Shown piece by piece: positions 7,659 through 56,865 of a stretch of 64,000 nucleotides of DNA. This DNA comes from Nonomuraea typhae (GTDB taxonomy: Bacteria; Actinomycetota; Actinomycetes; Streptosporangiales; Streptosporangiaceae): assembly GCF_009760925.1 (NCBI RefSeq), contig NZ_VRLV01000019.1:124001-188000 (forward strand). Reading direction: 5' to 3'. Positions within the stretch are counted from its first letter, which is position 1. Each line of letters begins with the position of its first letter. The notes under the pieces were generated by a model. It was given only the letters and a program-made list of their open reading frames with translations. It was not told the origin of the DNA and searched no databases. A program made the translations under genes and the position numbers.

Positions 7659-9604
7659 CAGTGCTGGGCCATGTCGACGAAGCGGCTGTAGTGGCCCTGG
7701 AAGGCCACGGTGACGGTGGCGGTGGGACCGTTACGGTGCTTGCCCACGATCAGGTCGGCCTCACCGGCACGCGGCGACTCCTTCTCGTAGGCGTCCTCAC
7801 GGTGCAGCAGGATGACCATGTCGGCGTCCTGCTCGATGGAGCCCGATTCGCGCAGGTCGCTGACCTGGGGGCGTTTGTCGGTGCGTTGTTCGGGGCCGCG
7901 GTTGAGCTGGGACATGGCGATGACGGGGACCTCGAGCTCCTTGGCCAGCAGCTTGATGCCTCGGGAGATCTCCGAGACCTCGTTCTGGCGGCTTTCGGTC
8001 TTCTTCGGCGAGCTCATCAGCTGGAGGTAGTCGATGATGACGAAGCGCAGGTCGTGGCGTTGCTTCAGGCGGCGGCACTTGGCCCGGATCTCCATCATCG
8101 ACATGTTGGGCGAGTCGTCGATGAACAGCGGCGCCTCGGCCACCTCGCTCATGCGGCGGGCCAGGCGGGTCCAGTCCTCGTCGCTCATCATGCCCGAGCG
8201 CATCGCGGACAGGGCCACCCGGGCCTCGGCCGACAACAGGCGCATGGTGATCTCGTTGCGCGACATTTCCAGGGAGAAGATGACGGTGGTCATGCCGTGC
8301 TTGATCGCCGCGGATCTGGCGAAGTCGAGGCCGAGCGTGCTGTTGTGGGTGGGGATCCACGTACGGCCGGCCAGGTACATGTGGTCGGCGTTGTCCACTT
8401 CGACGCACCTGACCGGGACCGAGGCGACGGGGCGCACGGCCACGATGTCGCGGGGGGCGCGGGTGAAGCCGATCTCGCCGTCGCGCGTCGTGGTCACGTA
8501 GCCGAGGCTGTGGAGGAGTTCGAGGGTGTCCGTCGTGGCCTGCCGGAGGCGGCCGTCCTCGTCGAGGAGCTCGGCCAGGAGGGCGCGTCGCTCGGCGGCG
8601 GGGGCGCGCAGGCGGGAGGTCAGCACCGAGCCAGGCCCCGCCGGCAGGTCGAGTGGGGCCGCCGCCTCGACCGTGTGCGGCAGCGTGCGGGCGATCTCCT
8701 CGGTGGTGTGGACGCCGGTCGTGGTGCGCCACTGGTGCCGGGCGTCGGCCACCAGCACGCTGCCGTCGCTGAACTCGACCTCGTAGCACGGCCTGCCGTG
8801 CATGACCTCGGTGGCGGCGACGACGCGCGTGGGCCTGCCGTCGGCGCCGATGAGGTCGTCGCCCGCGCGCACCTCGCCCATCGTGGTCCAGCCGGTGGGG
8901 GTCGGCAGCGGGGTGTCGAGGGCGAGGGCCTTGCCCATGGCGGGGCGGGCGGCCACGACGATCATCTGGCCGGGGTGCAGGCCGTTGGTGAGCGTGTCGA
9001 GGTCCTGGAAGCCGGTCGGGACGCCGACCATGTGGCCGCTGCGGCTGCCGATGGCCTCGAGCTCGTCCAGGGCGCCGGGCATGATCTCGGCCAGCGGGGC
9101 GTAGTCCTCGCTGGTGCGGCGCTCGGTGACCTTGTAGATCTCGGCCTGGGCGCGGTCGACGAGGTCGTCGACCTCTTCGTTCTGGCCGCCGTAGCCGAAG
9201 GAGACGATGCGGGTGCCGGCCTCGATGAGGCGGCGCAGGATGGCCTGCTCACGCACGATCTTGGCGTAGTAGCCGGCGTTGGCGGCGGTCGGGACGACGG
9301 CGGTCAGCGTGTGGAGGTAGGCGGCGCCGCCCACCCTGGCCATCTCGCCGCGCTTTTGGAGCTCGTCGAAGACGGTGACGGCGTCGGCCGGTTCGCCTCT
9401 GCCGTAGAGGTCGGTGATGACCTCGTAGATGATCTGGTGGGCGGGGCGGTAGTAGTCGTCGGCGCGCAGGATCTCGACGACGTCGGCGATCGCGTCCTTC
9501 GACAGCAGCATGCCGCCCAGGACGGACTGCTCCGCCTCGATGTTGTGGGGCGGGGTGCGGTCGAAGCTCGGACCGCCGCCGGGCCCCTCGTCGTCTATGG
9601 TCAC
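7658..9604 (-). CDS. dnaB: Replicative DNA helicase DnaB containing an intein
   Basis: 648 codons: about 452 residues of helicase plus a 196-residue intein. The N-terminal domain starts PPHNIEAEQSVLGGMLLS. The RecA-like motor has its P-loop GRPAMGK-S split by the intein after Lys225, Walker B in FVIIDYLQLM, and SQLNRGPEQR near the end. DnaB unwinds DNA at the fork and is active only after splicing rejoins the P-loop. Start is GTG 9604, with GAGGGGGC as ribosome-binding site; earlier in-frame codons lack support. The upstream region holds a DnaA-box cluster. The Rsm22-like gene is coupled downstream. Confidence 0.97.
   Translation of the reverse strand: MTIDDEGPGGGPSFDRTPPHNIEAEQSVLGGMLLSKDAIADVVEILRADDYYRPAHQIIYEVITDLYGRGEPADAVTVFDELQKRGEMARVGGAAYLHTLTAVVPTAANAGYYAKIVREQAILRRLIEAGTRIVSFGYGGQNEEVDDLVDRAQAEIYKVTERRTSEDYAPLAEIMPGALDELEAIGSRSGHMVGVPTGFQDLDTLTNGLHPGQMIVVAARPAMGKALALDTPLPTPTGWTTMGEVRAGDDLIGADGRPTRVVAATEVMHGRPCYEVEFSDGSVLVADARHQWRTTTGVHTTEEIARTLPHTVEAAAPLDLPAGPGSVLTSRLRAPAAERRALLAELLDEDGRLRQATTDTLELLHSLGYVTTTRDGEIGFTRAPRDIVAVRPVASVPVRCVEVDNADHMYLAGRTWIPTHNSTLGLDFARSAAIKHGMTTVIFSLEMSRNEITMRLLSAEARVALSAMRSGMMSDEDWTRLARRMSEVAEAPLFIDDSPNMSMMEIRAKCRRLKQRHDLRFVIIDYLQLMSSPKKTESRQNEVSEISRGIKLLAKELEVPVIAMSQLNRGPEQRTDKRPQVSDLRESGSIEQDADMVILLHREDAYEKESPRAGEADLIVGKHRNGPTATVTVAFQGHYSRFVDMAQH
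8342..8929 (-). other. Class 3 mini-intein in DnaB P-loop (196 residues)
   Basis: Encoded in frame between Gly-Lys and Ser of the Walker A motif. It begins with Ala, not Cys or Ser (ALALDTPLPTPTGW), and ends IPTHN followed by Ser+1. It carries the non-contiguous WCT set of class 3 inteins: Trp67 in block B (ADARHQWRT), Cys175 in block F (VRCVEVDNADHMYL) and Thr194 in block G. In this class, as known from mycobacteriophage and mycobacterial DnaB inteins, the block F Cys makes the first branched intermediate. Residues 117-127 (LLAELLDEDGR) look like a single decayed LAGLIDADG motif, so the homing endonuclease is probably dead. Confidence 0.93.
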
Positions 9605-9700
9605 CGCGCCCCCTCGAACTAGCAGGCGGTCGCACCACCCCCACTTGTAGCCGACCGGTCTGACAGTTTCCCCCGTTCCCTGGAGTACGGCAACGCGGCC

Positions 9701-9776
9701 TGTGGACAAGCCTGTGGTCAAGCTGTGTACGACTCGGCTCAGGGTGTGGGAGCACTGTGGACAGTCTTGTGGATAA
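9701..9776. promoter_or_regulatory. Cluster of three DnaA-box-like sites upstream of dnaB
   Basis: On the plus strand TGTGGACAA at 9701-9709 and TGTGGATAA at 9768-9776 are perfect reverse complements of the boxes TTGTCCACA and TTATCCACA. TGTGGACAG at 9756-9764 has one difference. The last two start 12 bp apart. They lie 97-172 bp before the dnaB start and just upstream of the MATE gene, far from the origin. DnaA control of dnaB or DnaA titration is inferred. Confidence 0.6.
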
Positions 9777-9884
9777 CTCTCCGGCGTATCCCCAGAGTGC
9801 CTGTTGAGCTGCGGAAACAGTGTCCACCGACTGTGGAGGAAAGAAAGTTGGCCTGTCGCCGCACGTAAGGCTCATAATGGACAA

Positions 9885-11186
9885 ATGCCCATTACATCGG
9901 AGGATCGGGAGATTCTCCGGCTAGCCGTCCCCGCCTTCGGGGCGCTCGTGGCCGAGCCGCTCTTCCTGCTCGCCGACTACGCCATCGTCGGGCACGGTCT
10001 GGGCACCACCGCGGTCGGGGCGCTGGGCGTCGCCGGCACCGTTCTGACGACCGTGGTGAACCTCTGCGTCTTCCTCGCCTACGGCACCACCGCCGCGGTC
10101 GCCCGGCTCACCGGCGCCGGCGAGCACACCCGCGCCATGCGCAACGGCGTGGACGGCCTCTGGCTGGCCATCGGCATCGGCCTGGCCGTCATCGCCGCCG
10201 GCTGGCCGCTCGCGCCCTGGGTCGTGGACCTGTTCGGCGCCGCCCCGGAACAGGCCGCGCAGGCCGTCGTCTACCTGCGCATCAGCCTGCTCGGCGTGCC
10301 GGGCATGCTCGTCGTCCTGGCCGGCACGGGCGTGCTGCGCGGGCTGCAGGACACGCTCACCCCGCTGGTGGTGGCGATCGGCTCGTTTGCCCTCAACGCC
10401 GCGCTCAACGCCTGGTTCGTCCTCGGCCTCGACTGGGGCATCGCGGGCTCGGCCTGGGGAACCGTGGCCGCCCAGACGGCCGGCGCCCTCGTCTACCTCG
10501 CCGTGGTCGTCAAGGGGGCCCGCCGGCGCGGCGTCTCCCTGCTGCCCGACCCCGCCGGGCTCAAGCAGGCGGGAACCGCCGGGTTCGCGCTGCTCGTGCG
10601 GACCGTCTGCCTGCGTGTCGTGCTGGTCGTGGCTACCGTGGTGGCCACGCGGATGGGCCAGGCCGAGCTGGCCGCGTTCGCGATCTCCACCCAGGTGTGG
10701 TCGCTGCTCGCCTTCGCCCTGGACGCGATCGCCATCGCCGGGCAGGCCATCACCGGGCGGGCGCTGGGCGCCGGCGACGTCGCCGCCACCCGGTCCGCCA
10801 CCCGCCGCATGGTGCTGTGGGGCGTCTGGTCCGGTGTCGCGCTGGCGGCGCTGGTGCTGCTGGCCAGGCCGTACATCCCGGGGTTGTTCGCGGCCGATCC
10901 GCAGGTCACCGCGGAGCTGCTGGCGGTGCTCTGGCCGGTCGCGCTCTTCCAGCCGATCTGCGGCGTGGTGTTCGTCCTCGACGGCGTGCTCATCGGCGCG
11001 GGCGACCAGAAGTACCTCGCATGGGCCGGCGTGTGGACGACGCTGGCCTACCTTCCCGCCGCCCTTCTTGCCACCGGATGGAACGTCGTTGCGCTTTGGT
11101 GCGCGCTTGGTCTGTGGATGATTGCACGTCTGATCACGCTGGTCCGGCGGGCTCTCGGCACTGCATGGCTGGTGACCGGGGCGTAA
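9885..11186 (+). CDS. MATE-family multidrug/toxin exporter (DinF-like)
   Basis: 433 residues with about 12 hydrophobic helices in two repeated halves. MATE features include LAVPAFGALVAEPLFLLADYAIVGHGLGTTAVGALG at the N-terminus and LNAALNAWFVLGLDWGIAGSAWGT mid-protein. Such proteins export cationic compounds using Na+ or H+ gradients. The ATG at 9885 sits 6 nt after a CATAAT hexamer (9873-9878) and lacks a Shine-Dalgarno, so the mRNA is probably leaderless. Divergent from dnaB. Confidence 0.94.
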   Translation: MPITSEDREILRLAVPAFGALVAEPLFLLADYAIVGHGLGTTAVGALGVAGTVLTTVVNLCVFLAYGTTAAVARLTGAGEHTRAMRNGVDGLWLAIGIGLAVIAAGWPLAPWVVDLFGAAPEQAAQAVVYLRISLLGVPGMLVVLAGTGVLRGLQDTLTPLVVAIGSFALNAALNAWFVLGLDWGIAGSAWGTVAAQTAGALVYLAVVVKGARRRGVSLLPDPAGLKQAGTAGFALLVRTVCLRVVLVVATVVATRMGQAELAAFAISTQVWSLLAFALDAIAIAGQAITGRALGAGDVAATRSATRRMVLWGVWSGVALAALVLLARPYIPGLFAADPQVTAELLAVLWPVALFQPICGVVFVLDGVLIGAGDQKYLAWAGVWTTLAYLPAALLATGWNVVALWCALGLWMIARLITLVRRALGTAWLVTGA

Positions 11187-11224
11187 CCGTCCCGTGCTTG
11201 TTGTGGCGTGATCGGTGAGGCACT

Positions 11225-12718
11225 GTGAGCGAGTTCACCGAGCAGGGTTGGTCGCTCTTGTCCACGATGATGCGCCGATTACCGCCATCAGAGGCCACCG
11301 GGTTGCGCACGGGTGCCCGGCACCGCCTCGCGCAACTCTATGGGCCCGCGGACCTCGTGGTGCTCGGGCTGGGCGTGACCATCGGAGCGGGCATCTTCAG
11401 CATCGCGGGCACCCAGGCGGCGACCACCGCCGGGCCGGGCGTCCTGCTCTCCTTCATGATCGCGGGCATCGCCTGCCTGCTCTCGGCCCTCTGCTACGCC
11501 GAGCTGTCGTCCACGATGCCGACCTCGGGCACCGCCTACACCTTCGCCTACGTCATCTTCGGCGAGGTCTGGGCGTGGGTCATCGGCTGGGCACTCCTCC
11601 TGGAACTCCAGCTCGCGGCGGCGGTCGTGGCCCGGGTGTGGGCCATCTACGCCGCGCAGTTCCTCACCGACTTCGGCATCCGCCTGCCGTACCCTGACGT
11701 CTTCTCCGATGGCTTCGCGCTGTTCATCCTGGTGCTGCTGACCGCGATCGTCTCGCTCGGCGCGCACATCGGGCTCCGGGCCCTGTGGGTGATCGTGGGG
11801 GCCAAGCTGCTGGCCATCCTGGCGGTGCTGGTCGTGGGCGCGTTCCACATCAAGGCGGCCAACTTCGGCAACTTCTTCGTCGAGGCCCGGCCCTCCCCCA
11901 CCCCGCCGGACACCGTGCTCGAGGTGATCCTCGGGCAGAGCCAGACGTTCGGGTGGTTCGGGGTGTTCGCCGCCGCCTCGGCGATCAGCTTCGCCTACAT
12001 CGGCTTCGACCTGGTCACGACCGCCGCCGAGGAGACCGTCAACGCCCGCCGCGCGGTGCCGAAAGGCGTCATCAGAAGCCTGGTGATCGCCACGGTGATC
12101 TATCTGGGCGTGGCGATCGTGATGATCGGCATGGTCCCGTACACCCGCATCTCCACCGACGCGCCGCTGGCGGGAGCGTTCCGAACGGCCGGCGTCGACT
12201 GGATGGTGCACGTCATCGACATCGGCGCCGTGCTCGGGCTGACCACGGTGATCCTGGTGCTGCTCGTCGGCCAGACGCGCGTGATGTTCGCGATGGCCCG
12301 CGACGGACTGCTGCCCCGCGGGCTGGCCACGATCAGCCGCCGCTTCCACACGCCCTCCAGGGTGACGTGGGTGATCGGCGGGATCGCGATGCTGATGGCC
12401 CAGTTCGTCCCCGTCTTCACCTTGCAGGAACTCGTGGTGCTGGGCGCCCTGTTCGCCTACCTGTTCGTCGCGATCGGCGTGATCATGATGCGCCGCCGGC
12501 TGCCGGACCTCGAACGCGGGTTCACCGTCCCCCTGTCACCCTGGCTGCCCGGGTTGTCGATCGTGGCGACCGTCTGGCTCATGGTCAACCTCAGGGCGCT
12601 CACCTGGGGCTGGTTCGCCCTGTGGATGGCCGTCGGGCTGCTGGCCTATCTCCTGTACGGCAAGCGGCACAGCGTCCTGGCGGCCCAGGTCAAGGGCCGG
12701 GGACGGCACCGGCGTTAG
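11225..12718 (+). CDS. APC-family amino acid permease
   Basis: 497 residues with about 12 transmembrane segments. The helix 1 signature GLGVTIGAGIFSIAGTQAATTAGPGVLLSFMIAG and the helix 6 region FAAASAISFAYIGFDLVTTAAEE are typical of the cationic amino acid transporter branch of the APC superfamily. GTG start 11225 has GGTGAGG upstream. It lies 38 bp after the MATE gene, possibly one transcript. The stop overlaps that of the convergent ABC ATPase gene by sharing TTAG. Substrate not readable. Confidence 0.94.
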   Translation: MSEFTEQGWSLLSTMMRRLPPSEATGLRTGARHRLAQLYGPADLVVLGLGVTIGAGIFSIAGTQAATTAGPGVLLSFMIAGIACLLSALCYAELSSTMPTSGTAYTFAYVIFGEVWAWVIGWALLLELQLAAAVVARVWAIYAAQFLTDFGIRLPYPDVFSDGFALFILVLLTAIVSLGAHIGLRALWVIVGAKLLAILAVLVVGAFHIKAANFGNFFVEARPSPTPPDTVLEVILGQSQTFGWFGVFAAASAISFAYIGFDLVTTAAEETVNARRAVPKGVIRSLVIATVIYLGVAIVMIGMVPYTRISTDAPLAGAFRTAGVDWMVHVIDIGAVLGLTTVILVLLVGQTRVMFAMARDGLLPRGLATISRRFHTPSRVTWVIGGIAMLMAQFVPVFTLQELVVLGALFAYLFVAIGVIMMRRRLPDLERGFTVPLSPWLPGLSIVATVWLMVNLRALTWGWFALWMAVGLLAYLLYGKRHSVLAAQVKGRGRHRR

Positions 12719-45105: not shown

Positions 45106-45308
45106 GTTTCACGTGAAACCCAGCGCGTGCGAGGGTCGGCTGGTTTCACGTGAAACACACGCGTGGGGGTCCAGGAGGGCGCGCTCTCACGGAACGGTTT
45201 CACGTGAAACAGGCGCGGGGCCGAGAGGGTGTCACGGGAGAGTTTCACGTGAAACACGCGTGCGGGGCCCGGAAGGGCATGTACTCGCAGGACGGTTTCA
45301 CGTGAAAC
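45106..45308. promoter_or_regulatory. parS: parS cluster (5 sites)
   Basis: Five perfect copies of the palindrome GTTTCACGTGAAAC at 45106-45119, 45143-45156, 45197-45210, 45242-45255 and 45295-45308, spaced 37, 54, 45 and 53 bp. The last ends 16 bp before parB's stop. ParB loads here and ParA segregates the complex. The intervening DNA shows no gene. Confidence 0.98.
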
Positions 45309-46828: not shown

Positions 46829-47755
46829 TTAGACGGTGGAGGCGCGGTAGGCGATTTCGCGGCTGGCGTCCATGTAGGCCATGGCGCCGCTCGAGCCCGG
46901 GTCGTACGTCATCACGGACTGACCGTAGCTGGGCGCCTCCGACAGCCGGACGCTGCGCGGGATGACCGTGTTGAGGACCGTCTCCCCGAAGTGGGAGCGC
47001 ACCTCTTCCGCCACCTGGGAGGCCAGCCGGGTACGGCCGTCGTACATCGTGAGCACGATCGTGGACAGGCGCAGAGTCGGGTTGAGGTGGGCCTTGATGA
47101 GGTCCACGTTGCGCAGAAGCTGCCCGAGGCCCTCCAGGGCGTAGTACTCGCACTGGATGGGGATCATCACCTCGTCGGCCGCCACCAGAGCGTTCACCGT
47201 CAGCAGGCCGAGCGACGGCGGGCAGTCAATGATGATGTAGTCGAACTCGATCGCGTCATAGGCGGCCAACGCCCGGCGCAGGCGGGCTTCACGGGCTACC
47301 AAGGAGACGAGCTCGATCTCGGCGCCGGCCAGGTCGATGGTGGCCGGGGCGCAGTACAGGCCGGGCATCTCCGGGACCTCTTTGACGATCTCGGCCATCG
47401 GGAGGTCGTCCACCAGTACCTGGTACACGTCGGGGATGTCACCGCGGTGCTCGGTGGCCAGGGCGGTGGAGGCATTGCCCTGCGGGTCCAGGTCGACGAC
47501 GAGCACGCGCTGGCCGTTCATGGAGAGCGCGGCGGCGATGTTGACCGAGGTGGTCGTTTTGCCGACTCCGCCCTTCTGGTTGGCCACCGCGATCACCCGG
47601 GTTTTGGGTGGTCTGGGCCAGGCGCCCTGGGCCTCGCCGGCGGACTCCCCCGCGGCGGGAACCGTTTGAACAGCTGATGTTTCACGTGAAACCACTGAGC
47701 TGAGCGCCTCTCGTACCAACGGCGAATCACCGGGGTTAAGGGGGGTCTGGGTCAC
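46829..47755 (-). CDS. parA: Chromosome partitioning ATPase ParA (Soj)
   Basis: 308 residues from GTG 47755, preferred because GAAAGG lies 9 nt upstream; ATG 47764 would abut it. A flexible N-terminal tail of about 45 residues contains SRET, the translation of a parS site. Deviant Walker A NQKGGVGKTTTSVNIAAAL, then VLVVDLDPQGNAS and YIIIDCPPSLGLLTVNAL. Segregates origins with ParB. Confidence 0.96.
   Translation of the reverse strand: MTQTPLNPGDSPLVREALSSVVSRETSAVQTVPAAGESAGEAQGAWPRPPKTRVIAVANQKGGVGKTTTSVNIAAALSMNGQRVLVVDLDPQGNASTALATEHRGDIPDVYQVLVDDLPMAEIVKEVPEMPGLYCAPATIDLAGAEIELVSLVAREARLRRALAAYDAIEFDYIIIDCPPSLGLLTVNALVAADEVMIPIQCEYYALEGLGQLLRNVDLIKAHLNPTLRLSTIVLTMYDGRTRLASQVAEEVRSHFGETVLNTVIPRSVRLSEAPSYGQSVMTYDPGSSGAMAYMDASREIAYRASTV
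47679..47692. promoter_or_regulatory. parS: parS site inside parA
   Basis: Perfect GTTTCACGTGAAAC within the 5' part of the parA coding sequence, read there as part of VVSRET. The sixth site of the window, 2.4 kb from the other five. Confidence 0.97.
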
Positions 47756-51018: not shown

Positions 51019-51166
51019 GGGTGGGCTCCAGGCTTGATGATGCGCCCACTGCCGGGCGCTTAACACACATGGATGGCCTGCCACGGGCATGCTGAATAGC
51101 CGTCGAGTGACAAGCCGACCGTCGTACGTTACGGGGCATGTATGCCCCAGGTCAAACCAGGATCGG

Positions 51167-51419
51167 TTATCCACGTATCCACATGTGGGTTTTCCACCGC
51201 CGTGGTCACGTCCACAGTATGTGCACCGAGCACCCACTACGCTGTGGACAACGTCTTGAACACAGTTGTGCACATCGCTACTGTCGGCCCTTCCAGACCC
51301 GCCATGAGGCTGTGCACAACTTGTGGATCACTTGTGGAGACTGTGCGGGTAACACACTGCCGTCGGGTTGTGGACGGCGGGGGCTGGGCACCGGGAGTGC
51401 GGCCGCTGGGTGTGGATAA
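51167..51419. promoter_or_regulatory. DnaA-box region between rpmH and dnaA
   Basis: 459-bp gap between rpmH and dnaA. Box-like sites: TTATCCACG 51167-51175, GTATCCACA 51175-51183, TGTGGACAA 51243-51251, TGTGGATCA 51322-51330, TGTGGACGG 51369-51377 and perfect TGTGGATAA 51411-51419, the last 59 bp before dnaA. Orientation switches between the outer pairs. Likely part of the origin and of dnaA autoregulation. Confidence 0.8.
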
Positions 51420-51477
51420 CGCCGTGCGTGGGTGAACACGTTCGCGGGGGGCCGCGAGAGGAAGGAGCAGCCGGACT

Positions 51478-53040
51478 ATGGACCTCGGCGACGTGTGGAC
51501 GAGGGCATTGGGCAACTCCCTCAACGAGAGCGTGCAGATCCAGCAGCGCACCTGGCTCTCCATGGTCCGCCCGATCGCCTTGGCCGACGACACGATCGTG
51601 CTCGGCGTGCCCAATGACTTCATCAAGGACCTGATCGAGGGCGACAAGCTGCGGCCGCTGGTGGCCCACGCGCTCTCGCAGGAGCTCGGCCGGTCGATGC
51701 GCGTCGCCGTGATGATCGACACGACCGCGCCGCCGGCCCCCACGCCGCCGCCCGCGCCACCGGCGCTCGAGGGTCATCCCCAGCCTGTGACTCCGAGTTA
51801 TCCCCAGAGTGTGGATCACTATCCACAACCTGTGCTTCCCCCGAATTACCAGGCCACGGAGCCGCCTCAGTTCTATTCTCCACAGCCGGAGGCGCAGCCG
51901 GTATCCACCGACTATCCACAGTCCGCCTTCGGTTATGAACAGAAGAAGGCACCGGAGCCCGCCCAGCCCCGGTGGGAGGCAAAGAGCACCAAACCCAGCC
52001 AACCGGCCAGGCTCAATCAGAAGTACACGTTCGAGACATTCGTCATCGGCGCCAGCAACCGCTTCGCGCACGCGGCGGCGGTCGCGGTCGCCGAGTCGCC
52101 GGCCAAGGCGTACAACCCGCTGTTCATCTACGGCGACTCGGGGCTGGGCAAGACGCACCTGCTCCACGCCATCGGCCACTACGCGCAGTCTCTCTACGAC
52201 GGCGCCCGGGTGCGGTACGTGAGCTCGGAGGAGTTCACCAACGACTTCATCAACAGCATCCGCGACCACAAGGCCGACGGCTTCCGCAGCCGCTATCGCG
52301 CGATCGACATCCTGCTTGTGGACGACATCCAGTTCCTGGAGGGCAAGGAGCAGACGCAGGAGGAGTTCTTCCACACCTTCAACACGCTCCACAACGCCAA
52401 CAAGCAGATCGTCATCTCCTCCGACCGCGCGCCCAAGCAGCTCATCACGCTGGAGGACCGGCTGCGCAACCGGTTCGAGTGGGGCCTGATCACCGACGTC
52501 CAGCCGCCGGAGCTGGAGACCCGCATCGCCATCCTGAGGAAGAAGGCCATTCAGGAGGGCCTGGCCGCGCCGCCCGAGGTGCTGGAGTACATCGCCAGCC
52601 GGATCTCCACCAACATCCGCGAGCTGGAGGGGGCGCTGATCCGGGTCACGGCCTTCGCCAGCCTCAACCGCCAGGGCGTGGATCTGCAACTGGCCGAGGT
52701 CGTCCTCAAGGACCTCATCACCTCGGAGTCCGGCCCGGAGATCACGATCGCCAACATCATGGCCAAGACGGCGGAGTACTTCGGCATCAGCATCGACGAC
52801 CTCTGTGGAAGCTCGCGCAGCCGCGCGCTCGTCAACGCCCGGCAGATCGCGATGTACCTCGCCCGCGAGCTGACGGACCTGAGCCTGCCGAAGATCGGCC
52901 AGCAGTTCGGCGGCCGCGACCACACCACCGTGATGCACGCCGAGCGCAAGATTCGCTCGCTAATCGCCGAGCGCCGGTCGATGTACAACCAGGTCAACGA
53001 GCTGACAATGCGTATAAAGCAGACGTCGCACGGCTCTTAG
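51478..53040 (+). CDS. dnaA: Chromosomal replication initiator DnaA
   Basis: 520 residues. Domain I at 1-80, a Pro/Gln/Tyr-rich domain II at about 82-178, an AAA+ motor with Walker A GDSGLGKT (219-226) and Walker [15 protein letters not shown] (278 on), and a DNA-binding domain IV with [14 protein letters not shown] near 480. Opens oriC and loads DnaB. ATG 51478 with GGAAGGAG. The domain II coding DNA itself carries DnaA-box-like sequences. Confidence 0.99.
51798..51920. promoter_or_regulatory. DnaA-box-like array inside the dnaA domain II coding sequence
   Basis: Within 123 bp: TTATCCCCA 51798-51806, TGTGGATCA 51810-51818, CTATCCACA 51819-51827, GTATCCACC 51901-51909 and CTATCCACA 51912-51920. 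Each differs by one or two bases from TTATCCACA. In frame they yield repeated Tyr-Pro-Gln. Confidence 0.6.
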
Positions 53041-53563
53041 TCGTCATGCACACCCTGTGGATAACACTGTGGATCAGCGAAAACACCCGCGGGGGCGGGG
53101 TTCACCGCCCCAATGTGCCGGAAAAGTCCCCCACAATGCCTGGGGATAAATCTGGGGACATCCTGCGGACAACTTGGGGACGACCGGTGGACAGCTTGGG
53201 GACAGCCTGTGCACAGTGGTCCCAGGGGTCACCTGGAGCTCCGTTTACCCCGTGGATAACCGGTGGAAACCCAGTGGATAACCCGTGGATGAACACCCTG
53301 TGATCTGGGGACGGCCTGTGTGCAACGAGCGTTCATCCCCAGCCGCGGAAGTTACCCCCAGGCTTCACCCACACGGGCAGTGGATGAAGAACGCGGTGCT
53401 GACCTGCGAGAACGCGAGTTGTCCACCATATCCACAGCCCCTAGTGTGATGACCTCTTATCTCTCTTACAAAGAAACTCAAGACCCATAGAGGGGTTCCG
53501 CCCGTCCAGAGGTGCGGGAGAGTGAACACTTGAATCAGCGACGAACCCAGGAGGTTGATCACC
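53041..53563. promoter_or_regulatory. oriC: Replication origin oriC (dnaA-dnaN interval)
   Basis: 523 bp packed with DnaA boxes: TGTGGATAA 53056-53064, TGTGGATCA 53068-53076, TGGGGATAA 53141-53149, TGCGGACAA 53164-53172, TGGGGACAG 53197-53205, CGTGGATAA 53251-53259, AGTGGATAA 53273-53281, TTGTCCACC 53419-53427 and ATATCCACA 53428-53436. Most point one way; the last two are inverted. Many actinobacteria have oriC in this interval. The flanking genes read away on both sides. Confidence 0.93.
53419..53447 (+). promoter_or_regulatory. dnaN promoter overlapped by two DnaA boxes
   Basis: TTGTCC at 53419-53424, a 17-bp spacer, TAGTGT at 53442-53447. The boxes TTGTCCACC and ATATCCACA cover the -35 and spacer, so bound DnaA would block it. 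Confidence 0.5.
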
Positions 53564-54703
53564 GTGATGTTCCGAATCGAGCGAGACGTCCTCGCTGAGG
53601 CGGTGGCATGGACGGCACGCAGCCTCCCGGCGCGTCCGTCGGTGCCCGTCCTGGCCGGCATGCGCCTGGAGGTCACCGGAGAGCAGAAGCTGAAGCTGTC
53701 CGGCTTCGACTACGAGGTCTCGGCCGAGGTGACGCTTGAGACGCAGACCGGTGAGGCCGGCGTGGTGCTCGTCTCCGGCAAGCTGCTGGCCGAGATCACC
53801 CGCGCGCTTCCCGCACAGCCTGTGGACTTCGTGGTGGAGGGCCCGAAGGCCGTGGTCACCTGTGGCAGTGCGCGCTTCACCCTGCTGACCATGCCGGTGG
53901 AGGACTACCCGTCCCTGCCCGCGATGCCCCCGGCCGCCGGCCGGGTGGGCAGCGACGTGTTCGCCTCGGCCGTCGGCCAGGTCGCCGTCGCCGCCGGGCG
54001 TGACGACACCCTGCCCATGCTCACCGGCGTGCGCATGGAGATCGAGGGTGACACCGTGACCCTCGCGGCCACCGACCGCTACCGCCTCGCCGTACGCGAA
54101 CTGAAGTGGCAGCCGGGGCAGCCGGACTTCGCGGCGATCGCGATGATCCCGGGCAAGACGCTCGCCGACACCGCCAAGGCGCTGGGTTCCACGGGCGCCG
54201 AGGTGGAGATCGCGCTCAGCTCGTCCGGCGGCACCGGCGAGGGCATGATCGGGTTCTCCAGTGCCGGGCGCCGGACCACCACGCGCCTGCTCGACCCCGA
54301 GTTCCCCAAGTACCGCTCGCTGCTGCCGACGGAGTTCGCGGCCAAGGCGGAGTTGTCCACAGGCCCGTTCGTCGAGGCGGTCAAGCGCGTGGCCCTGGTG
54401 GCCGAGCGGAACACGCCGGTGCGCATGGCGTTCCGCGGCGGCGAGGTCGTGCTGGAGGCCGGCAGCGGCGACGAGGCCCAGGCCGTCGAGGTGCTGCCTG
54501 TGGACTACGACGGCGAGGAGATGAACATCGCCTTCAACCACCAGTTCCTTCTCGAGGGACTCGGCGCCATCGACTCCGATGTGGCCAGGCTGCAGATGAC
54601 CACCTCGACCAAGCCCGCTATCCTCACCGGCGGAAAGCCTGTGGATGGTGACGCGGCGCCCGACTACCGCTACCTGATCATGCCCATCCGCTTGTCCAGC
54701 TGA
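53564..54703 (+). CDS. dnaN: DNA polymerase III beta sliding clamp
   Basis: 379 residues, normal length with three clamp domains. Starts MMFRIERDVLAEAVAWTARSLPARPSVPVLAGM and ends with the partner-pocket tail YRYLIMPIRLSS. GTG 53564 selected for the AGGAGG 9 nt upstream and family length; ATG 53567 is close. A perfect DnaA box TTGTCCACA lies inside at 54353-54361. Confidence 0.99.
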   Translation: MMFRIERDVLAEAVAWTARSLPARPSVPVLAGMRLEVTGEQKLKLSGFDYEVSAEVTLETQTGEAGVVLVSGKLLAEITRALPAQPVDFVVEGPKAVVTCGSARFTLLTMPVEDYPSLPAMPPAAGRVGSDVFASAVGQVAVAAGRDDTLPMLTGVRMEIEGDTVTLAATDRYRLAVRELKWQPGQPDFAAIAMIPGKTLADTAKALGSTGAEVEIALSSSGGTGEGMIGFSSAGRRTTTRLLDPEFPKYRSLLPTEFAAKAELSTGPFVEAVKRVALVAERNTPVRMAFRGGEVVLEAGSGDEAQAVEVLPVDYDGEEMNIAFNHQFLLEGLGAIDSDVARLQMTTSTKPAILTGGKPVDGDAAPDYRYLIMPIRLSS

Positions 54704-54722: not shown

Positions 54723-55598
54723 ATGCAGATCGGCATGGTCGGACTCGGCAAGATGGGCGGGAACATGGCCGAGCGGCTGCGCCGCGGCGGTCACGACGTG
54801 GTCGGCTACGACCGCGACCCGGCCGTCAGTGACGTCGCCGGTCTGAAGGAGCTGGTCCAGCGGCTGCAGGCGCCGCGGGTGGTCTGGGTCATGGTGCCCG
54901 CGGGCGCGCCCACCCAGCAGACCGTCGACGAGCTCGGCGACCTGCTGGCCGAGGGCGACGTCATCGTCGACGGCGGCAATTCACACTATGTGGACGACCA
55001 GAAGCACGCCGCCGAGCTGGGCGAGAAGGGCATCGGCTTCGTCGACTGCGGGGTGAGCGGCGGCGTCTGGGGTCTCCAGAACGGCTACGCCCTCATGTGC
55101 GGCGGCGAGAAGGCGCATGTGGACAAGGTCATGCCGATCTTCGAGACGCTCAAGCCGGAGGGCGAGGACGGCTTCGTGCACGCCGGCGACGTCGGCGCCG
55201 GGCATTTCGCCAAGATGGTCCACAACGGCATCGAGTACGGCATGATGCAGGCATTCGCCGAGGGCTGGGAGCTGCTGGAGGCATCCGACGTCGTCAAGGA
55301 CGTGCGCGGCAGCTTCAGCAGCTGGCGCACCGGCACTGTGATCCGCTCGTGGCTGCTGGACCTGATGGTGCGCGCGCTCGACGACGACGAGCACCTGGAG
55401 GAGCTCAAGGGTTATGCACAGGACTCCGGCGAGGGCCGGTGGACGGTGCAGGCGGCTGTGGATCACGCGGTCCCGCTGCCGGTCATCACGGCCGCGCTCT
55501 ACGCCCGCTTCGCCTCGCGCCAGGACGACTCGCCGGCGATGAAGGTCGTCGCCGCGCTGCGCAACCAGTTCGGCGGGCACGCGGTCGAGTCGAAGTGA
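54723..55598 (+). CDS. gnd: 6-phosphogluconate dehydrogenase (decarboxylating), short form
   Basis: 291 residues. [32 protein letters not shown] (NAD(P)-binding), [30 protein letters not shown] and the active-site Lys in [19 protein letters not shown]. The short form is often NAD-dependent. Pentose phosphate step yielding ribulose-5-phosphate. Standard place between dnaN and recF in actinobacteria. Contains TGTGGACAA at 55118-55126. Confidence 0.97.
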
Positions 55599-55632: not shown

Positions 55633-56865
55633 GTGCACGTCGCCCATCTCTCGCTGACCGACTTCCGGTCCTACGCGTCGGTGGAGCTCGGCCTGGAGCC
55701 GGGCATCACCGCGCTCGTGGGGCCGAACGGCCAGGGCAAGACCAACCTGGTCGAGGCCCTGGGCTATGTGGCGGCGCACTCCAGTCACCGCGTCGCCAAC
55801 GACGCTCCGCTGGTACGGCAGGGCGCGGCGCGGGCCATCGTCCGCTGCGCCGTACACAGGGATGAGCGGCGGGCGCTGGTCGAGCTGGAGATCAACCCGG
55901 GCAAGGCCAACCGCGCCCGGCTCAACCGCTCCCCCGTCTCGCGGCCCAGAGACGTGATCGGGCTGCTGCGCACGGTGCTGTTCGCGCCCGAGGACCTGGC
56001 GCTGGTGAAGGGCGATCCGTCGGAGCGGCGGCGCTTCCTCGACGACCTGCTGGTGGCCAGGGCGCCGCGGTTCGCGGGGGTGCGGGCGGACTACGACCGC
56101 GTGCTGAAGCAGCGCGGGGCGTTGCTGCGCATGGCCGCGCAGGCCCGCAGAGGCTCCAGGAGCGCCCGGCGGGCGGAGAGCGACTCCGGATTCGCGGCCG
56201 CGGGCGCCGGGGACGTCCTGAGCACTCTGGAGGTCTGGGACGCCCATCTCGCGCGGGCCGGTGCGGAGTTGCTGCGGGCCCGGCTCGAACTCGTCGAGGC
56301 GTTGCGCCCACTGGTCTCCGGCGCCTACGCGGCGCTGGCCCCGGGCGGCGGCGCGGCGACGCTCGACTACCGCAGCACGTTGTCCACAGGTGGGGACGCC
56401 GAGGTGGACGAAGAGCCCGCCGGACGTGGATCTTCTGATACACAGACGTTATCCACAGACTTGGGGAAAACCCTTGAGGAAAGACTGCGCGAGCGGCTAC
56501 AGGAGGTACGGCAGGCGGAGCTGGAACGCGGCGTGACCCTCGTCGGGCCGCACCGCGACGACCTCCTGCTCGGCCTGGGCGAGCTGCCCGCCCGGGGCTA
56601 CGCCAGCCACGGCGAGTCCTGGTCGTTCGCGCTGGCGCTGCGCCTGGCCGCCTACGACCTGCTGCGGGCCGACGGCGGGGATCCGGTGCTGATCCTGGAC
56701 GACGTCTTCGCCGAGCTCGACACCCAGCGCAGGCGCAGGCTCGCCGAGATCGTGGCGCCGGCCGAGCAGGTGCTGATCACGGCGGCTGTGGACGACGACG
56801 TGCCCGGCGAGCTGGTCGGCGCCCGATACGACGTGGCCGAAGGGAGTGTGGCCCGTGTCCGATGA
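55633..56865 (+). CDS. recF: DNA recombination/repair protein RecF
   Basis: 410 residues. SMC-like ATPase: Walker [17 protein letters not shown], signature region [19 protein letters not shown], Walker [12 protein letters not shown]. Loads RecA at gaps via RecOR. Two low-complexity stretches (about 171-194 and 247-290) break the middle; the second is encoded by DnaA-box-rich DNA. GTG 55633 is 7 nt after TACCCT (55620-55625), leaderless. Confidence 0.97.
56390..56457. promoter_or_regulatory. DnaA boxes inside the recF insertion
   Basis: Two perfect boxes, TTGTCCACA 56390-56398 and TTATCCACA 56449-56457, lie 59 bp apart in DNA encoding a low-complexity loop ([20 protein letters not shown]...). 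They are followed by an AT-richer stretch TTGGGGAAAAC. Confidence 0.7.

Follow-up and report, generated by a model that had tools for sequence, protein, structure and literature searches.

Origin-type DnaA boxes are kept by selection on the DNA within the coding sequences of dnaA domain II, dnaN, gnd and recF in Nonomuraea. On balance, the linker-coding DNA of dnaA probably represents a codon-selected array of predicted DnaA-binding sites and belongs to a zone of DnaA boxes, about 5-6 kb long, that would hold DnaA and slow the transcription of dnaA. The window analysed here is a stretch of 64,000 nucleotides from contig NZ_VRLV01000019.1 of Nonomuraea typhae. Its dnaA product matches the Pfam families Bac_DnaA (1.8e-77) and Bac_DnaA_C (7.4e-31), and its relatives in the PDB include 3pvp and 1j1v, over the DNA-binding domain. 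The closest named genome found is that of Nonomuraea endophytica, the two DnaA proteins being 93% identical in their best segment. The gap between dnaA and dnaN is predicted to be the origin on the basis of its box array and the gene order (Table 1). Of the DnaA domains, domain II is reported to vary most and to serve chiefly as a flexible linker (PMC5448010), and the oriC of Streptomyces is described as containing 19 boxes in two groups (PMC5448010, PMC13270200, PMC3411110).

An initial annotation of the window had reported five DnaA-box-like 9-mers at 51798-51920, in the stretch that encodes domain II. All five were recovered in a scan of the window, each with one mismatch from TTWTNCACA and each close to the generic DnaA box TTATCCACA. 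Shuffled versions of the 64-kb window give a mean of 11.2 such matches, or about 0.02 per 123 bp, and chance is rejected as the source of the boxes. The annotation read the boxes as Tyr-Pro-Gln repeats, which applies to three of them (SYPQ, HYPQ and DYPQ), while one encodes YSPQ and one lies on the minus strand across SVDH. The array also proves to be longer than first described, extending from 51773 to about 51943. Two of the main domain II boxes are found in 53/53 genomes of the genus and three more in 44 to 48 of 53. The tandem double box is a small-scale copy of the layout in the origin gap; its two boxes (51900/51911) lie on the same strand with a 2-bp gap, and E. coli DnaA in vivo prefers pairs of boxes that are 2-3 bp apart (Stringer et al. 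2024, PMC11317965). This tandem arrangement is present in 53/53 genus genomes, its two sites singly reaching a score of at least 8 in 47/53 and 53/53, and outside the genus it occurs in 10/19 other-genus loci and in 5/10 named loci from other Streptosporangiaceae genera.

Table 1. Features of the window around dnaA. Counts out of 53 refer to genomes of the genus and counts out of 23 to distinct genomes; expected values are those obtained by synonymous recoding.
Feature	Position	Strand	Remarks
Box cluster, rpmH-dnaA gap	51166..51420	both	10 sites, score at least 8
dnaA coding sequence, 520 aa	51478..53040	+	ORF; AAA+ domain and DnaA C-terminal DNA-binding domain
Domain II (linker) coding segment, as set in scripts	51721..52005	+	7 motif sites, score at least 8
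DnaA-box-like GTCATCCCCAGC (H-P-Q)	51773..51784	+	score 14.0; 19/53; His codon CAT in 51/51 rows having His
DnaA-box-like GTTATCCCCAGA (S-Y-P-Q)	51797..51808	+	score 14.5; 53/53
9-mer TTATCCCCA	51798	+	1 mismatch from TTWTNCACA
DnaA-box-like GTGATCCACACT	51808..51819	-	score 8.9; 11/53
9-mer TGATCCACA	51810-51818	-	1 mismatch from TTWTNCACA; lies across SVDH
DnaA-box-like ACTATCCACAAC (H-Y-P-Q)	51818..51829	+	score 9.8; fewer than 4/53, peculiar to the window and a few relatives
9-mer CTATCCACA	51819 and again 51912	+	1 mismatch from TTWTNCACA
DnaA-box-like ATTCTCCACAGC (Y-S-P-Q)	51875..51886	+	score 11.2; 44/53; 19/23, 0.0 expected
9-mer TTCTCCACA	51876	+	1 mismatch from TTWTNCACA
Tandem double box GTATCCACC-ga-CTATCCACA (V-S-T-D-Y-P-Q)	51900..51922	+	9-mers 2 bp apart
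Weak box-like GTTATGAACAGA	51932..51943	+	score 4.9; aligned GAA codon fixed in 45/45 rows having Glu
Sixth 9-mer TTATGAACA	51933	+	just outside 51798-51920
dnaA-dnaN intergenic region, predicted origin	53043..53438		22 sites, score at least 8, 16 on minus strand; largely 11-bp steps
Box-like site in dnaN (P-V-D-F)	53819..53830	-	23/23, 0.7 expected
Box-like site in dnaN (P-V-E-D)	53894..53905	-	23/23, 8.5 expected
Box-like site in dnaN (L-S-T-G), GTTGTCCACAGG	54352..54363	+	23/23, 6.0 expected
Box-like site in dnaN (P-V-D-Y)	54497..54508	-	17/23, 8.3 expected
Box-like site in dnaN (P-V-D)	54638..54649	-	23/23, 8.9 expected
Box-like site in gnd (6-phosphogluconate dehydrogenase-like)	54987..54998	-	12/23, 0.7 expected
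Box-like site in gnd, GTTATGCACAGG	55411..55422	+	16/23, 2.8 expected
Box-like site in gnd (A-V-D-H)	55455..55466	-	20/23, 8.4 expected
Box-like site in recF (L-S-T-G), GTTGTCCACAGG	56379..56390	+	23/23, 7.3 expected
Site pair in recF, GTTATCCACAGA (+) and GTTTTCCCCAAG (-)	56448..56471	+ and -	starts 12 bp apart (56448, 56460); 23/23 each, 2.9 (56448) and 14.4 (56460) expected

The motif used for scoring was built from dnaA-dnaN gaps only, by expectation-maximisation in a short script whose starting point was a typed box-like seed. The training set consisted of 53 genomes of the genus (54 were searched and 53 gave a match) and included no dnaA coding sequence. The resulting origin motif is G-T-T-[AG]-T-C-C-[AC]-C-A-G, which derives from Nonomuraea and may overlook boxes in other groups. 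At a score of at least 8, the 15.4 kb of domain II from the 53 genomes contain 331 sites, or 21.4 per kb, as opposed to densities per kb of 4.65 for domain I, 3.46 for domains III-IV and 38.4 for the origin gaps. Within the origin gaps, 406 adjacent same-strand pairs of sites are spaced by exactly 11 bp, and the commonest 7-mers are TCCCCAG (258) and TCCACAG (208), the former and most frequent variant deviating from the classical DnaA box. In the gap of the window a near-regular 11-bp ladder of boxes, with TCCACA and TCCCCA cores mixed, is seen at 53139-53326. The strict motif TTRTCCMCAGV occurs at 41 places in 11.39 Mb, compared with 8 for a reversed control, and 8 of the 41 fall within 7 kb at the dnaA locus. 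Dense boxes adjoin the predicted origin and hence would be replicated early, as is expected of a titration locus.

The boxes of domain II are maintained by selection on the DNA rather than on the peptide, as judged from comparisons of codons. The Tyr of YP[QH] in domain II is encoded by TAT in 107 cases and by TAC in one, compared with 37 TAT and 543 TAC in dnaA outside domain II. The Pro of this motif is encoded by CCA (58) or CCC (50) and in 0 of 108 cases by CCG, which is the commonest Pro codon outside (402/700). Two box Tyr columns are 100% TAT, the highest of the 11 Tyr columns outside domain II reaching 31%, and the single non-box Tyr column of domain II, among columns with at least 30 rows, contains 3% TAT. 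Synonymous shuffling within domain II, with peptide and codon counts held, lowers the number of sites per genome from the observed 6.25 to 2.50 (47/53 genomes at p ≤0.01), and recoding by the codon usage of the rest of the gene lowers it to 1.06 (53/53 at p ≤0.01). In 28 less-similar representatives the shuffle test gives 6.29 observed sites versus 2.42, and the excess is robust to score cut-offs from 6 to 12 and to the use of a generic consensus. For the window alone, the origin motif finds 7 sites versus 2.79 with peptide and codon composition fixed, and 0/500 shuffles reach 7. The generic consensus finds 6 versus 2.97 in the segment 51766-52010, where the maximum of 500 shuffles is also 6. 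Generic-box evidence from a single genome is modest and the case therefore rests on the comparison across the genus.

It is very improbable that YPQ is a protein motif in its own right and that the boxes are accidental. YPQ positions are indeed kept as peptide within the genus, but the codon choice at Tyr and Pro is almost uniform and shuffles that retain the same peptide lose most of the sites. Furthermore, there are boxes on the minus strand (PVEK, 45/53) and in a second frame (STE, 47/53) as well, and thus no single peptide repeat accounts for all of them. Codon bias and synonymous shuffles contradict peptide selection as the sole cause, although the YPQ peptide may have an additional role. 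It is scarcely credible that the YPQ units are mutual copies which have diverged little owing to a recent repeat expansion or shared ancestry. The units are alike, but non-box codons of the linker vary more than those of the rest of dnaA, and the Tyr of YP[QH] is still TAT in 43/44 cases in 19 other-genus loci; the codon patterns contradict this candidate. The variation follows from how often two genomes with the same residue also use the same codon, which is 0.889 where both are boxed and 0.729 for non-box codons of domain II, and, in dnaA outside domain II, 0.863 for box-like and 0.798 for non-box codons. The gain in domain II boxes comes for example from Pro (0.95 vs 0.59) and Ser (0.98 vs 0.78), with Thr higher too; for Tyr (0.89 vs 0.93) and Gln (0.89 vs 0.95) there is no gain of box over non-box codons in domain II.

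Codons that are rare elsewhere are fixed in 23/85 columns inside domain II and in 5/433 outside, and such a concentration would also be expected if slow codons in the linker paused ribosomes or if the mRNA were folded. In a fold test that covers the window only, its segment does fold somewhat better than shuffles (z -1.68, 11/200 as good), and by our own reading 4 of these 23 columns fall outside any box-like sequence. By the same reading, however, 19 of the 23 fall in box-like sequence, partly in weak variants such as TCATCAACAG and TTTTGAACAG, the non-box Tyr column takes the common codon, and boxes recur in dnaN and recF. An effect of codon speed or mRNA structure is highly improbable, and was rejected. 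Fixed rare codons with no visible box were noted at dnaA alignment columns 25, 147, 153, 211 and 234 (GTA, CAA, GCT, ACA and GAA, respectively). The excess of sites is also absent with column-scrambled motifs, 0/300 of which match it (taken as the difference between observed and shuffled counts) in domain II, in dnaN or in gnd and recF together. A few scrambled motifs with low counts are higher in ratio (up to 4.09 in domain II and 7.03 in dnaN) but never in excess. The gene sets of this comparison comprise 27 rows, 4 of them duplicate genomes, and the counts out of 23 in Table 1 come from the 23 distinct genomes. Taken from codon bias, synonymous shuffles, codon sharing and scrambled motifs alike, the expectation of the initial annotation that the DNA is kept more than the peptide requires is borne out.

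Beyond the linker, seven sites in dnaN and recF occupy positions that are fixed in 23/23 genomes. With codon-selected boxes also present in dnaN, recF and gnd, the reason first offered for the array, a linker in which any sequence is tolerated, can explain it only in part at best. Within domains I and III-IV of dnaA, sites are found in the 23 genomes at 52366 (23/23, 21.4 expected), 52143 (22, 14.1 expected), 52315 (22/23, 8.4 expected) and 51604 (17/23, 4.2 expected), and more of these four is explained by the peptide or by usual codons. In the window, the genes from dnaA to recF, together with the short gene that follows, contain 28 sites versus 10.8 by shuffles. All other called genes contain 55 versus 47.4, including 14 versus 6.05 from three genes at 7661-12715. 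The signal in gyrB is weak, with 80 sites observed versus 50.3 by shuffles and 61.9 by recoding, and 5/300 scrambled motifs do equally well. In 7 genomes, the density to the left of the origin is 1.59 per kb in rnpA, 1.15 in yidC, 0.84 in jag and 0.00 in rsmG, with ratios to shuffles of 1.78, 2.27, 1.02 and 0.00, the small excess in yidC and rnpA stemming from 8 and 4 sites. In the same genomes, the genes from dnaA to recF reach 3.4 to 7.2 sites per kb, which is 2.3 to 2.9 times the shuffled level. The box zone is mostly one-sided and lies to the right of the origin.

Box-like sites were also observed at some distance from dnaA. A second cluster is located at 9699-9796, about 42 kb to the left of the origin, flanked by dnaB (7661-9721) and by a gene of the MatE family (9804-11183). 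Such sites are frequent within the coding sequences of the MatE gene, with one position in 20/22 loci and a whole-gene ratio to shuffles of 1.60, and of an amino-acid permease, with one position in 24/25 loci and a ratio of 1.94. Elsewhere in the genome, a strong cluster with 5/41 of the strict matches (L198, 4314-6341, G000:C44) lies beside nuo-type genes, both within a Ser/Thr kinase-like gene and in the DNA upstream of it, and four strong boxes on one strand (L200, 2420-2505, G000:C53) lie just upstream of an EccC/FtsK-like gene. The window further contains GTTTCACGTGAAAC sites, five in about 200 bp at 45106-45308 and one more at 47679, which we take to be parS-like.

The box trait is limited to a clade. 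The excess in dnaA, dnaN, gnd and recF is found in Streptosporangiaceae in the narrow sense (10 named loci, ratios 1.66 to 3.40) and in an Actinomadura/Thermomonospora set (8 loci including one metagenome bin labelled only Actinomycetes, ratios 1.60 to 3.95). No excess in these four genes was found in 7 loci of Micromonosporaceae (ratios 0.60 to 1.25), four Micromonospora loci being the better controls with 16 to 42 sites per kb in the first 500 bp after dnaA and 0 or 1 domain II site. The same applies to 12 loci of Pseudonocardiaceae (0.42 to 0.90), which are weak controls as only 0 to 20 sites per kb are found in that 500-bp stretch in the loci used. For domain II alone, the borders of which are approximate in the broad survey (16/80 rows flagged for a default or doubtful length), 7 of the 10 Streptosporangiaceae loci outside Nonomuraea are at p ≤0.025 and 3 at p 0.06 to 0.22, and 5 of the 8 Actinomadura/Thermomonospora loci are at p ≤0.03 and 3 at 0.07 to 0.375. 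Only 10 of the 19 other-genus loci reach p 0.01 in the domain II shuffle test. Two relatives (L052 and L053) have no excess of linker boxes, with one site each at chance level, and a single locus titled Streptomyces (L121) has 4 domain II sites versus 1.34 (p 0.02).

Individual positions differ between these groups. Site 53819 is present in 8/10 Streptosporangiaceae versus 1/8 Actinomadura/Thermomonospora loci and site 54638 in 9/10 versus 0/8, while the reverse is seen for site 54921 (0/10 versus 6/8) and site 56397 (0/10 versus 6/7). Site 53894 is common to both groups (7/10 and 8/8) and is also found in 10/49 other actinobacterial loci. Density is held while many positions move between groups, which is the pattern of binding-site turnover. 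Free drift of box positions, which the initial annotation regarded as speaking against a binding array, is absent within the genus for the main boxes, and turnover between families does occur in dnaN, gnd and recF. Similar clusters round the origin of an actinomycete are reported from Streptomyces coelicolor in the literature of 2006, in which these high-affinity DnaA-box clusters were proposed to hold DnaA.

It is proposed that DnaA binds to the boxes within the genes. The zone would begin in the gap between rpmH and dnaA, take in domain II and the origin array between dnaA and dnaN, and reach into dnaN, gnd and recF. It would hold DnaA molecules right after the origin has been copied, while occupancy within dnaA itself, some 300 bp past its start codon, would slow the transcription of the gene, both effects being less certain than the binding. 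Re-initiation would thereby be damped by titration and by slowed dnaA transcription alike, and the repetition of Tyr-Pro-Gln would on this view result mainly from boxes being read in that frame. We think that titration and transcription feedback are both in play. An early-copied reservoir fits the density, the turnover and the mixed orientation of the boxes, whereas feedback on transcription fits their one-sidedness along the dnaA gene row, and the low density to the left of the origin is not predicted by pure origin-proximity titration.

Autoregulation on its own, where DnaA on the array blocks RNA polymerase in dnaA, the downstream boxes do likewise for dnaN, gnd and recF, and the putative operon thus reads the DnaA level, is possible but doubtful. 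The enrichment does track the rightward genes dnaA, dnaN, gnd and recF, with low density in the divergent rnpA, yidC, jag and rsmG, a box cluster lies upstream in the rpmH-dnaA gap, and autoregulation of dnaA has been described in E. coli (PMC5835720). Simple promoter feedback, however, needs no boxes over 5 kb, and yidC and rnpA also show their small excess. The main rival is an extension of the origin, in which the domain II boxes form an arm of the orisome that pairs with the intergenic array through contacts of DnaA domain I which bridge the domain III-IV spacer; we regard this as rather unlikely. In the window 6/7 domain II sites are on the plus and 16/22 intergenic sites on the minus strand, so that the two groups point towards one another over a distance of about 1.1 kb. 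Origins of a bipartite type, in which dnaA is the spacer, have been described (PMC4285127), and the present locus resembles them in having box clusters on both sides of dnaA and differs in the extra cluster within the dnaA reading frame. Against an orisome arm, like sites run on through dnaN, gnd and recF in both orientations, and many positions in these genes vary between families, which fits occupancy better than an ordered machine.

The proposed reservoir has a parallel in E. coli, where the accumulation of DnaA boxes near oriC and titration have been shown (Olivi et al. 2025, PMC12371093), and as in that system the surplus near the origin is here read as a reservoir. The surplus in E. coli and Salmonella is described over windows of 2 to 10 centisomes (PMC12371093), whereas the dense zone of these Streptosporangiales spans about 5-6 kb in named coding sequences and comes with codon-level evidence. 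A DnaA site within E. coli dnaN has also been reported (PMC11317965), and both this site and the preferred pairs have counterparts here that are predicted from sequence. The E. coli dnaN site is described in that report without a double box, whereas here the double box lies in dnaA and the dnaN sites are single and codon-fixed. The E. coli loci datA, DARS1 and DARS2 are likewise clusters outside oriC, and they bind DnaA and affect initiation; they differ in being described as non-coding (PMC5835720, PMC12371093). Searches of titles and the beginnings of abstracts, with most subscription journals outside their scope, found no report of DnaA boxes within the coding sequence of dnaA, nor of selection for such boxes at the level of codons.

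The initial idea of a selected binding array is in part supported, being right but too narrow. We suggest only tentatively, and at less than even confidence, that the amino acid sequence of the DnaA linker in Streptosporangiales is largely dictated by the DNA, and that an in-frame sensor array of dnaA itself forms, together with the boxes in dnaN, gnd and recF, a titration and feedback element that replaces the separate control loci of E. coli. The sequence of domain II, taken to be a variable linker, is here much explained by selection at the DNA level for putative sites of the encoded protein, and the codon signature in dnaN, gnd and recF suggests that protein-coding genes at an origin can double as a DnaA reservoir. 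Models of titration and feedback become testable by synonymous recoding that leaves the proteins unchanged, and caution is advised in taking YPQ repeats and synonymous sites near origins as neutral. Overall, in this group of soil actinomycetes, the text of the genes beside the origin seems to act in addition as an element that controls the copying of the chromosome.
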